NCBI GenBank assembly: GCA_949293815.1
Contig: CASFEZ010000003.1
Span: forward strand, 54,689-118,688
Direction: 5' to 3'
From: an uncultured Eubacteriales bacterium
GTDB lineage: Bacteria > Bacillota > Clostridia > Oscillospirales > Acutalibacteraceae
Length of the DNA: 64,000 nucleotides
Part shown: one piece after another, positions 13,251 to 41,810 of the stretch
How positions within the stretch are numbered: position 1 is the first letter of the stretch
Layout: each line of letters opens with the position of its first letter
Program-made: the position numbers and the translations under genes
Notes under the pieces: generated by a model
Seen by the model: the letters and a program-made list of their open reading frames with translations, nothing else
The model's database searches: none
Told to the model about the DNA's origin: nothing

Positions 13251-13278
13251 TTGACTTTTTGTATTTTTATGCTATAAT
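13251..13278 (+). promoter_or_regulatory. Sigma-A promoter in front of the single structured repeat
   Basis: TTGACT (13251-13256), 16-base spacer, TATAAT (13273-13278) with a TGC extension. The predicted start falls at the CTCAGAC stem of the repeat. Confidence 0.7.
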
Positions 13279-13437
13279 AACCTCAGACACAAATCCGCTA
13301 AAGCGGATTGATCCACGCTTCGCGTGGACGGCGCTGCGCACCGGTCTGAGAACATTGTATCATAAAATCCTTTTGCCTTTGGCAAAAGCGCGGCTGAACG
13401 CCGCCACCCCCTGTCGGGGGAGAATTTATGATATAAT
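13273..13437 (+). repeat. Single diverged copy of the structured repeat
   Basis: It has the same plan as the array at 39.9-40.6 kb. Domain A (13282-13350) is closed by CTCAGAC/GTCTGAG and holds three hairpins. Domain B (13359-13432) is closed by ATCATAAAATC paired with GAATTTATGAT and holds the CTTTTGCC/GGCAAAAG, CGGC/GCCG and CCCC/GGGG hairpins. Several stems differ from the array copies by paired changes, e.g. CCACGC/GCGTGG here against CCCCGC/GCGGGG there. The copy ends in TGATATAAT (13429-13437), an extended -10 that points into the leader of the amino-acid transporter genes. Confidence 0.85.
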
Positions 13438-13582: not shown

Positions 13583-14425
13583 ATGAAAAAACTTTGGAAA
13601 ATCGCGGCTCTTGTTTTGAGCCTGGTTTTGGTGGTCGGCTGCTTCGCCGCCTGCGGATCGAGCGATGATGTTGATGAACCTGACGCCGGAGCCGAGGCTA
13701 CCAGCGAAGCCGGTACCACCGAAGCGGCCGAGTCCGACCGTTTGGCGGACGGCGTTCTGACCGTTGGTACCAACGCAACCTTCCCGCCCTTTGAGTATCT
13801 GGGCGACGATGGCACGCCCGATGGCTTTGACATTGCGCTGATTAAATTAATTGGTGAAAAAATCGGTGTTGAAGTTGAAGTTGTGGATATGGAATTTGAC
13901 TCTCTTTGCGCGTCAGTCGGTAACCGTATTGATGTGGCCATCGCCGGTATGACCGTGGATCCGGAGAGAGAAAAGACGGTTGATTTCTCTGATAATTATT
14001 ATAAGGCAATTCAGAATGTTCTGGTAGCCGCCGATAACACTGAGATTACCGATATGTCTTCTTTGGCTGGTAAGACTATCGGCGTGCAGCTGGGTACGAC
14101 CGGTGATAAGGTAGCGACTGAAGCTGTTGAAAATGCAGAGGTTAAGCAATATACTTCATATTCATTGGCTGTCGAGGATTTGAAAAATGGAAATGTTGAT
14201 GCCGTGATTATCGATCAGACACCTGGTGAAATTTTTGCTGGACAGAATACTGAGGAGTTAAAGTTATTGGGAGCAGAGAACTTTGATTTTGAAGATGAAT
14301 ATTATGCCATTGCATGCCCCGAAGGGGATACGGCGCTGGTTGCCAGAATCAATGCAGCTCTTAGTGAAATTCAGTCCAGCGGCGAATTTGATATGCTTGT
14401 CGACGAATACATCGGCAATAACTAA
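13583..14425 (+). CDS. Polar amino-acid ABC transporter, substrate-binding lipoprotein
   Basis: A 280-residue lipoprotein: signal sequence with lipobox CFAAC, an acidic/Ser/Thr linker, then a type 2 periplasmic-binding fold. Family landmarks are LTVGTNATFPPFEYLGDDG, GFDIALIKLIGEKIG, CDVAIAGMT-like IDVAIAGMTVDPEREKTVDFSDNYY and GKTIGVQLGTTGDK. It delivers a polar amino acid (glutamine, arginine, histidine or cystine class) to the permease encoded next. The start is 8 bases after GGAGG. A hairpin separates it from the permease gene, which should make the binding protein the most abundant product. Confidence 0.9.
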   Translation: MKKLWKIAALVLSLVLVVGCFAACGSSDDVDEPDAGAEATSEAGTTEAAESDRLADGVLTVGTNATFPPFEYLGDDGTPDGFDIALIKLIGEKIGVEVEVVDMEFDSLCASVGNRIDVAIAGMTVDPEREKTVDFSDNYYKAIQNVLVAADNTEITDMSSLAGKTIGVQLGTTGDKVATEAVENAEVKQYTSYSLAVEDLKNGNVDAVIIDQTPGEIFAGQNTEELKLLGAENFDFEDEYYAIACPEGDTALVARINAALSEIQSSGEFDMLVDEYIGNN

Positions 14426-39895: not shown

Positions 39896-39924
39896 TTGCA
39901 CTTTGTTCGGGCATGCGTTATAAT
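39896..39924 (+). promoter_or_regulatory. Sigma-A promoter in front of the repeat array
   Basis: TTGCAC (39896-39901), 17-base spacer, TATAAT (39919-39924). It would start transcription at the first CTCAGAC stem. Confidence 0.6.
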
Positions 39925-40644
39925 AACCTCAGACACAAATCCGCTTACCGGCGGATTTGTCCCCGCTTCGCGGGGCAGGGCGTTTCACGCCCGTCTGAGA
40001 ACATTGTACCATCAATCCTTTTGCCTTTGGCAAAAGCGCGGCTGAACGCCGCCCCCCTGTCGGTGGATGATTGACGGTATAATAACCTCAGACACAAATC
40101 CGCTTACAGCGGATTCACCCCGCTTCGCGGGACAGGGCGCTTCACGCCCGTCTGAGAACATTGTATCATAAATCCTTTTGCCTTTGGCAAAAGCGCGGCA
40201 TATCGCCGCCCCCCTGTCGGGGATGATTTATGGTATAATAACCTCAGACACAAATCCGCATACCGGCGGATTTGTCCCCGCTTCGCGGGACAGGGCGCTT
40301 CACGCCCGTCTGAGAACATTGTACCATCAATCCTTTTGCCTTTGGCAAAAGCGCGGCTGAACGCCCCCCTGTTGGGGAGTGATTTATGGTATAATAACCT
40401 CAGACGCAAATCCGCTTACCGGCGGATTTGTCCCCGCTTCGCGGGGCAGGGCGCTTCACGCCCGTCTGAGAACATTGTACCATCAATCCTTTTGCCCTTG
40501 GCAAAAGCGCGGCTGAACGCCGCCCCCCTGCCGGGGATGATTTATGGTATAATAACCTCAGACACAAATCCGCTTACCGGCGGATTTGTCCCCGCTTCGC
40601 GGGACAGGGCGCTTCACGCCCGTCTGAGAACATTGTATCATAAG
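39919..40644 (+). repeat. Tandem array of structured repeats (4 full + 1 half unit)
   Basis: Units begin (CTCAGAC) at 39928, 40087, 40243, 40399 and 40557, spacing 159, 156, 156 and 158. Domain A is 72 nt in units 1 and 5 (39928-39999, 40557-40628): CTCAGAC/GTCTGAG enclosing a 10-bp ACAAATCCGC hairpin, CCCCGC-TTC-GCGGGG and GGGCG-CTTCA-CGCCC. Domain B follows after AACATTGT: closing stem (e.g. ACCATCAATC with GATTGACGGT in unit 1) around CTTTTGCC-TTT-GGCAAAAG, GCGGC-TGAA-CGCCGC and CCCC-TGTC-GGGG. Each full unit ends in TATAAT (40078, 40234, 40390, 40548), with a TGG extension in units 2-4. Unit 5 lacks domain B. Confidence 0.93.
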
Positions 40645-40691: not shown

Positions 40692-41810
40692 ATGCATATC
40701 AGCGGTTATATGCCCGTTACATTGTTTGGCGGTGCCGGCGCCATGCACCGTGCAGCCGAATCCATTGCCGGTCTTGGTAAAAAATGCCTGGTGGTCACCG
40801 GCGGCGGGTCGGCGGTAAAAAGCGGCGCGCTGGCGGATTTGCTGCGTGTGTTTTCCGAAAAGCAAATCGAGTACCGTATTTTTGACCGTGTTGAACAGAA
40901 TCCCCGCACACATACCTGTCACCAGGCAGGGGAGGCGGCACGCGCATTCGGGGCGGATTTTTTGGCAGGTGTCGGTGGCGGTTCACCGCTGGATGCGGTA
41001 AAGGCCATTGGCTTTTATGCGGCAAATCCGGATTTTGCGCCGGATGATATTTATACGCGCCGTCAATCCGGGCATACGCCGCTGCCGTCCATATTGATAG
41101 GTACAACGGCGGGAACCGGCAGCGAGGTAACGGGCGTTGCGGTATTGACCAATGAAAGCGGCAGAAAACAAAGTATTTCCGGCGCAGACTGTTACGGAAC
41201 ACTGGCTGTATTGGATCCGACTTATACGCATTCCGTGCCCTATGGCGTAACGGTCAGCACGGCACTGGACGCCTTTGCCCATGCGCTGGAAAGCGCCATT
41301 GCCGAAAACAGCAATCTTTTATCAGAAACTTATGCGTTGCGTGCGCTGCCTTTGGTGTGGGAAGGTTTGCTTTCGTTTTATCAGACCGGAAAGCTGCCGG
41401 AGGATGCGCTGCGGGAAACCTTATACTATGGTTCTATTTTAGCCGGTCTGGCAATCAATATCACCGGTACGCTTTTTCCGCATACAGTGGGATATGTATT
41501 GACGGAGCAGCGGGGCATTGCCCACGGGCGTGCCTGCGCCGCTTTTACGCCGGTTCTTCTTGCACACGCAGAGAGCTTTGCACCGGAAAAATGGAACCGT
41601 GTACAGCACGCGCTTGGTGTGGACCGTAAAGAAATACAAACCGTTACCGTATCGCTGGCGGGGGTAAACGAGGTGTTTACCTCCGAGGAAGCCGCCCGGA
41701 TTGCCGGGCGGTGGCAGGACGCTAAGATCGCGAACTTTGCGCGCACACCCGGTGGGTTTACCGCCGAGGATGCCCGGCAGGCGCTGCTTTCTTTGGGAAA
41801 GACAGGCTGA
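40692..41810 (+). CDS. Iron-containing alcohol dehydrogenase family protein
   Basis: A 372-residue NAD(P)-dependent dehydrogenase of the Fe-ADH / glycerol-dehydrogenase fold. Cofactor motif GVGGGSPLDAVKAI, TTAGTGSEVTGVAVL, and metal ligands in STALDAFAHALE (Asp and His), FPHTVGY and IAHGRA. Substrate is not evident; alcohols or aldehydes are likely. AAGGGG lies about 12 bases before the ATG. The gene sits directly behind the repeat array, so the array promoters may transcribe it. Its stop abuts that of the convergent phosphoesterase gene. Confidence 0.9.
   Translation: MHISGYMPVTLFGGAGAMHRAAESIAGLGKKCLVVTGGGSAVKSGALADLLRVFSEKQIEYRIFDRVEQNPRTHTCHQAGEAARAFGADFLAGVGGGSPLDAVKAIGFYAANPDFAPDDIYTRRQSGHTPLPSILIGTTAGTGSEVTGVAVLTNESGRKQSISGADCYGTLAVLDPTYTHSVPYGVTVSTALDAFAHALESAIAENSNLLSETYALRALPLVWEGLLSFYQTGKLPEDALRETLYYGSILAGLAINITGTLFPHTVGYVLTEQRGIAHGRACAAFTPVLLAHAESFAPEKWNRVQHALGVDRKEIQTVTVSLAGVNEVFTSEEAARIAGRWQDAKIANFARTPGGFTAEDARQALLSLGKTG

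Follow-up and report, generated by a model that had tools for sequence, protein, structure and literature searches.

A folded tandem repeat array behind a promoter in an uncultured Eubacteriales bacterium, and its probable origin from a small mobile repeat that lands at the -10 box

An 850-base gap between genes of an uncultured Eubacteriales bacterium is filled with tandem copies of a sequence in which nearly every base can pair, and it lies between a promoter and the gene that this promoter would serve. This raises the question of what kind of element the repeat is and how it came to occupy such a position. The stretch analysed here, called the window in the following, comprises 64,000 nucleotides of contig CASFEZ010000003.1. 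From its comparison with related genomes, we consider it likely that the array arose when a small non-coding mobile repeat was amplified in tandem. This repeat would insert in sense direction directly 3' of the -10 hexamer of vegetative promoters and would prefer ATGRTATAAT as its target.

The array had been described in an earlier note, made from the letters of the window, as four full units and one half unit, and this description is accurate for window positions 39919-40643. The direct repeats begin at 39916, 40075, 40231, 40387 and 40545, with a spacing of 159, 156, 156 and 158, and TRF reports a period of 158, 4.6 copies and 92% matches for 39919-40641. All features of the locus are on the plus strand. 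The promoter in front (39896-39924) consists of the -35 box TTGCAC (39896-39901), a 17-nt spacer and the -10 box TATAAT (39919-39924). Unit 1 (39925-40083) starts with AACCTCA and contains domain A (39928-39999) and domain B, closing with GACGGTATAAT. Unit 2 (40084-40239), unit 3 (40240-40395) and unit 4 (40396-40553) all end with TGGTATAAT, and the half unit (40554-40643) comprises domain A and the left arm of domain B, AACATTGTATCATAA, followed by other sequence. The gene behind the array (40692-41810) encodes an iron-containing alcohol dehydrogenase (Pfam PF00465, E 2.1e-42, first 295 codons). The proposed domain plan is likewise correct: domain A spans 72 nt in unit 1 (39928-39999), where it is closed by CTCAGAC/GTCTGAG, and domain B forms a second multiloop. 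In the full units each domain has three hairpins, and the closing stem of domain B comprises approx. 15 pairs. TATAAT is found at the end of units 1 to 4, at 40078, 40234, 40390 and 40548, preceded by CGG, TGG, TGG and TGG, respectively.

A single full copy is present elsewhere in the window (13279-13437, plus strand, ending with TATGATATAAT). It follows a promoter at 13251-13278 with -35 TTGACT (13251-13256), a 16-nt spacer and -10 TATAAT (13273-13278), and it precedes a gene for a solute-binding protein of family 3 (13583-14425, plus strand; Pfam PF00497, E 1.7e-35). The base upstream of TATAAT differs between the two sides of this copy, with TGC on the left vs TGA on the right.

The fold proposed for the units is confirmed by calculation and is a strong one. 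Unit 1 reaches -82.3 kcal/mol as RNA (z -8.98), a value that 0 of 200 shuffles attained, and when it is folded as DNA both strands are good (z -8.4 and -9.6). The paired changes that had been noticed between units are also borne out in a set of 34 copies from the window's genome (G000), G006 and G313, in which 91.0% of the cells pair: 19 pairs are changed on both sides vs 8.9 expected from shuffling, none of 500 shuffles reaches 19, and slid partners give 6-9. Most of this covariation is located in the closing stem of domain A. The structure of the underlying model, R1, was set by hand, and the RNAalifold consensus of alignment A1 was poor because gapped hairpins misalign. Since the alignment used for covariation was fitted to the model and leans toward structure, the claim also rests on the fact that hairpins are exchanged as a whole from one genus to another. 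The folded domains are kept by compensatory change. Single-step mismatches, counted as cells and not as events, comprise 22 G-U vs 41 A-C in domain A, which gives no sign of selection as plus-strand RNA; in the inner part of domain B the trend is reversed, with 17 G-U vs 4 A-C. The counts did not separate folding as RNA from folding as DNA.

The repeat belongs to no named RNA family as far as Rfam is concerned, which agrees with the earlier impression: the window has 0 matches at the gathering threshold, and two weak matches alone, both on the minus strand, at E up to 10. BLAST revealed 22 matches within the window's own genome and 14 in G006, one of six same-genus relatives; the other five (G001-G005) have no matches by BLAST or by model R1. 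The suggested covariance-model search uncovered more homologues, with R1 matches in 5 of 300 genomes scanned within the family. A collection of 84,980 species, scanned with an exact 19-base pattern that was taken from the middle arm, gave 37 stretches, and the common frame of the element was found in 33 of them, 31 by script through a further arm and two by eye (L082, L103). The remaining four (L083, L106, L111, L114) are without the frame and were set aside as chance. The titles of the 33 stretches name Ruminococcus, Ruminiclostridium, Oscillospiraceae, Eubacteriales, Clostridia, Eubacterium or 'bacterium', and all are MAGs or uncultured. Within the order, a frame pattern that requires TATAAT and misses A domains of the short type occurs in 12 of 394 genomes, which represent 7 of 169 genera; at least two of these genomes (G103, G628) share coordinates with genomes encountered before (G309, G303). 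The reversed control gave zero. The number of exact TATAATAACCTCA matches per carrier ranges from 0 (G312) to 27 (G056), including matches without an element behind them (L197, L201, L209, L219, L248); L197 is located in G002, a genome otherwise without the element. Unit 1 has no match in the plasmid and phage collections, and the one matching stretch among viral contigs, L191, lacks the frame. Five contig ends of the window's genome (C28, C8, C22, C49 and C50; L006, L007, L011, L017 and L019) lie in or within ~30 bases of a repeat, so that copy numbers and array lengths in this genome are lower bounds.

The frame can be written as TATAAT / AACCTCA - hairpins - TGAGAACATTG(T/A)ATCATAAA - hairpins - TTTATGRTATAAT. 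In its expanded form across genera, the middle reads TGAG(AG)AACATTG(T/A)ATCATAAA and the right end TTTATG(R/T)TATAAT. Between genomes, the sequence of this frame is constant and the hairpins are rewritten. By eye, there are three hairpins per domain in the window's genus, G016, G303 and G304, and fewer, differently built ones in the Ruminococcus MAGs, G308 and G056. Domain A and domain B change independently of each other, as in G304, which has two A types with one B. The middle arm ATTGTATCAT can pair with the right end ATGRTATAAT and with the promoter in front. Terminal inverted repeats are absent, the ends AACCTCA and TTTATGRTATAAT not being the inverse of each other, and many copies outside the window are single.

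Several variants were observed in individual genomes. A short domain B, GCGCTCGGCGAC..CCCGCCTCGCAC, is near-identical in G307 (L178, L187, L260) and G006 (L023, L024, L026, L030), and the A domains of these copies are unrelated, which hints at horizontal spread or at a function of its own. The arrays in G056, a genome of 10 contigs, contain up to six units and constitute a separate subfamily, with TTTAAAT/TTTCAAT joints and, by eye, little hairpin structure in domain B (L224, L227, L228, L229, L231, L233, L237, L244). L091 of G311 carries TATAATAACCTAATAACCTCA at ~244-263 of the reverse complement, with a small AATAACC duplication at the left end. L032 and L060, at 2360 and 115 of G006 contig C103, are 2.2 kb apart and have a common left flank, which indicates that a stretch was duplicated together with its promoter.

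In a tree of 26 units, most of those sampled from the same array cluster with each other. Units 1, 3 and 4 of the window array cluster with modest support (84/88) and unit 2 falls outside; the two C23 units form a group (98/92), as do the three C103 units of G006 (100/97), and the eight G006 units constitute one clade (97/93). These groupings imply that local duplication accounts at least in part for the growth of arrays, and that each species amplifies its own version of the element.

Among the options considered in the earlier note, that of a structured mobile repeat is supported by the dispersal within and between genomes and by element-free sites at five loci. Two of these are the loci of the window. 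In G005, the 30 nt up to the last T of TATAAT are identical to those in front of the single copy (29 of 30 in G006), and divergence begins where the window has the element. The promoter of this gene in G005 is GGTTGACTTTTTGTATTTTTATGCTATAAT, the same as in the window and with one difference in G006, and it is followed by TTCTCTG in G005, TGCTCTG in G006 and AACCTCAGACAC in the window. At the array locus, each of the six same-genus relatives is without the array and has a -35/-10 pair at the corresponding position. The pair is TTGCAC and TATACT in G005 and G006, and TTGCAG or TTGAAG and TATAAT in G001-G004; G005 reads GGTTGCACTTTGTCCGG..TATACT, and the window, where the array comes next, reads GGTTGCACTTTGTTCGG..TATAAT. 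Divergence of the right flank obscures the right junction at both window loci. Flanks are alignable at L108 and L100(+) of G304, which contain 159 and 318 bases where G305 is empty. The fifth locus, L110 of G304, is filled, and no element is present in five paralogues from G303 and one from G306; the small gene at this locus may resemble a transposase orfA. The left flank and the right end have 11 bases in common at L108 and L110, so that the cut is not placeable within them and a duplication of TATAAT is possible.

At each of the five compared loci, the element is located at or next to the -10 hexamer and in sense direction. Judged from these alignments, the left TATAAT is the -10 box of the host promoter and predates the insertion, as the element-free sites assign it to the host. 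The right TATAAT can most probably be assigned to the element, because it takes part in the pairing of domain B and does not reproduce an off-consensus left -10. The left hexamer is TATACT in L107, TAAAAT in L060, TATGAT in L010 and TAGAAT in L029; the right end is TATAAT in the first three and TAAAAT in L029, and thus none copies the left one. The direction of change, gain and not loss, is clearest at the window loci and L110 and less so at L108 and L100(+). Internal loss also occurs, as indicated by a remnant in G305 (contig C12, ~13060; L205, L125), which consists of the promoter, TATAATAACCTCA, ~15 bases and TTTATGGTATAAT at the site where G304 has two units (L100, minus strand).

The sequence in front of first copies resembles a complete promoter. 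In 48 loci, namely those with enough flank among 51 parsed, the 48 including three copies with element sequence at the left and some orthologues, the best -35 at a spacing of 16-18 from the first TATAAT scores on average 4.0 of 6. A score of at least 4 is reached in 31 of the 48, compared with 25% of 312 TATAATs found elsewhere in the fetched DNA and 13% of shuffles, and TGn precedes the first -10 in 40 of 48; the -35 of the window array itself, TTGCAC, scores only 3 of 6. As the parser looked for TATAAT, the count was repeated with the middle arm and AACCTCA as sole anchors. Of 44 occurrences, 8 have no AACCTCA-like arm, 10 are internal and 26 are first copies, and exactly TATAAT precedes 22 of these 26. 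The other four have TATATT (two, in stretches that start within ~30 bases of the motif), TATACT (one) and CCTAAT (one, next to a small duplication).

A promoter built into every unit, as the earlier note had envisaged, is unlikely. The joints of the window array do keep an extended -10, but internal joints lack a -35 box (0-2 of 6 at all 24 joints scored), and the first TATAAT is assigned to the host. In G056, 8 of the 11 loci listed have TTTAAAT or TTTCAAT at internal joints, and an internal -10 is therefore not a required feature. Inward promoters on the opposite strand were also considered and dropped, because an A at the variable arm position in many genomes results in TTCAAT.

How the element might move can be sketched from these observations. 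It would insert just 3' of a -10 hexamer, and at both window loci AACCTCA follows the host -10 at once. Its 3' end TTTATGRTATAAT, which resembles an extended -10, would restore a usable -10 in front of the original start region of the gene. Movement may take place as folded single-stranded DNA, and the central arm ATTGTATCAT, whose sequence is complementary to the target as well as to the 3' end of the element itself, may help in target recognition. The same 3' end could also serve as a target and thereby seed arrays, and after insertion the element would be transcribed as a structured 5' leader. A more specific version, which we regard as rather doubtful, would make it a new class of bacterial mobile element that recognises the transcription bubble. 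The central arm, as an antisense extended -10, would pair with the -10 where it is single-stranded in an open promoter; the folded element would be joined directly behind this -10 without duplication, and its 3' end would then be available for the next insertion. In 36 of 53 copies, the base before TATAAT is the same as at the right end of the element, vs 19.8 expected overall, with arms assigned by script and a few in G056 doubtful, and within genomes the excess is not significant (permutation p 0.22). Arm-guided targeting thus fits the match at the level of lineages, fails significance within genomes and is offered as an idea.

Two other modes of movement have to be weighed. The main alternative on the mechanism is site-specific recombination with TATAAT as core, in which a tyrosine or serine recombinase, or short-homology exchange, would join an element circle or array with a promoter and leave TATAAT at both ends. 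The TATAAT hexamers with differing flanks at the two ends are in line with such an exchange, as are the junctions at loci with an element-free counterpart, where as many as 11 bases are ambiguous; however, an off-consensus left -10 beside a TATAAT right end would require later mutation, and we consider this unlikely. Somewhat better, yet still well short of probable, is a non-autonomous IS200/IS605-type element that is moved by a Y1 (HUH) transposase and inserts 3' of a short target without duplication. Folded ends without terminal inverted repeats, a short fixed target that is similar to the right end and has the insertion on its 3' side, and an internal arm complementary to the target would all be expected of it. 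The right ends beside off-consensus left hexamers and the unequal flanks of the single copy are compatible with insertion free of duplication. No transposase is linked to the element, though: Y1_Tnp is found in 9 of 16 carriers and is absent from 7, and it is present in 3 of 5 non-carriers. Most carriers are MAGs and maybe incomplete, so that absence is weak evidence. The surroundings of Y1 genes contain no middle arm of the element, just scattered single-arm matches with up to 2 mismatches. A Y1 transposase as the driver is not supported, as it shows no association with carriers.

The array could also owe its existence to the host. A cis-regulatory leader RNA of the riboswitch or attenuator class, belonging to its genes and inherited or copied with them, would account for the strong fold, the compensatory changes and the position in front of genes, an ORF with a plausible start being found behind 39 of 51 loci (a count without antisense control). 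The genes behind the element, however, point to no common regulon: 20 of the 39 were scanned with Pfam, and the 19 that matched have unrelated functions, such as gyrase B, PolyA_pol/CCA type, YajC, AIR carboxylase, MgsA_C ATPase and TetR. In addition, sister species have the orthologous genes without the element, and the sequence and, by eye, the number of hairpins vary between genomes, unlike a ligand-binding core. Domain A also shows no G-U preference, with inner domain B behaving in the opposite way. By ordinary -10 spacing, transcription would start near the A of CTCA, so that the conserved CTCA would lie at or upstream of the start and the full closing stem of domain A would be absent from RNA made from the host promoter. 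On balance, the leader RNA is improbable. Still more remote is a protein-binding decoy or promoter-multiplying array kept for the benefit of the host; every full unit of the window closes with a -10 that is extended or nearly so, as this would predict, but many copies elsewhere are single, and the internal joints lack -35 boxes and in most of the listed G056 loci carry TTTAAAT/TTTCAAT. Nothing observed speaks for the small-RNA role that the earlier note had also listed.

A small mobile repeat that lands behind -10 boxes thus remains the reading we prefer, and it has partial counterparts among known systems. IS200/IS605-derived palindromic elements and REP/REPIN have folded ends, insert 3' of a short fixed target and lack terminal inverted repeats; the element described here differs from them by the inconsistent presence of Y1, by the vegetative -10 as target and by its two multi-hairpin domains. 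Ty3-type integration at yeast transcription start sites is comparable in its base-precise promoter targeting, but it is the protein-guided process of an unrelated eukaryotic retroelement.

BOX elements and promoter-bearing MITEs such as Correia are nearest in kind. The BOX elements of streptococci are described as modular (boxA-boxB-boxC), with terminal inverted repeats and target duplications (PMC3049150). Like the repeat analysed here, they are small, folded, dispersed and variable in their tandem modules, are thought to be parasitic and are sometimes co-transcribed with neighbours (PMC3049150). Unlike BOX, the element here has no inverted termini and lands at the -10 box, a distinction drawn from the BOX description. 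Correia elements and other promoter-bearing MITEs are also small mobile repeats near gene starts that carry promoter sequence, and MITEs including Correia are characterised by terminal inverted repeats (PMC10969869). One Correia copy of Neisseria is reported to have inserted immediately downstream of the mtrCDE promoter, and a position behind a promoter is therefore not unheard of; the passages on Correia in this source give no fixed landing in one orientation behind a -10 (PMC10969869).

The element of the window is non-coding, dispersed and present or absent at orthologous sites, as mobile repeats broadly are, and because it has no terminal inverted repeats it is a small mobile repeat and not a MITE in the strict sense. 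The open-licence literature gave no description of its sequence or of a bacterial repeat that lands at the -10, which is weak evidence of absence.

Small bacterial mobile repeats are usually thought to accumulate between genes through loose preference and selection, and landing at the -10 box is unusually precise for such a repeat. Together with a far end that resembles an extended -10, this suggests a way of settling beside genes without killing their expression. The conserved frame with its freely rewritten hairpins provides a simple signature for finding the mobiliser, and the element is a natural system for the study of promoter-directed DNA insertion. It may also be a way in which gut Clostridia acquire new structured 5' leaders.
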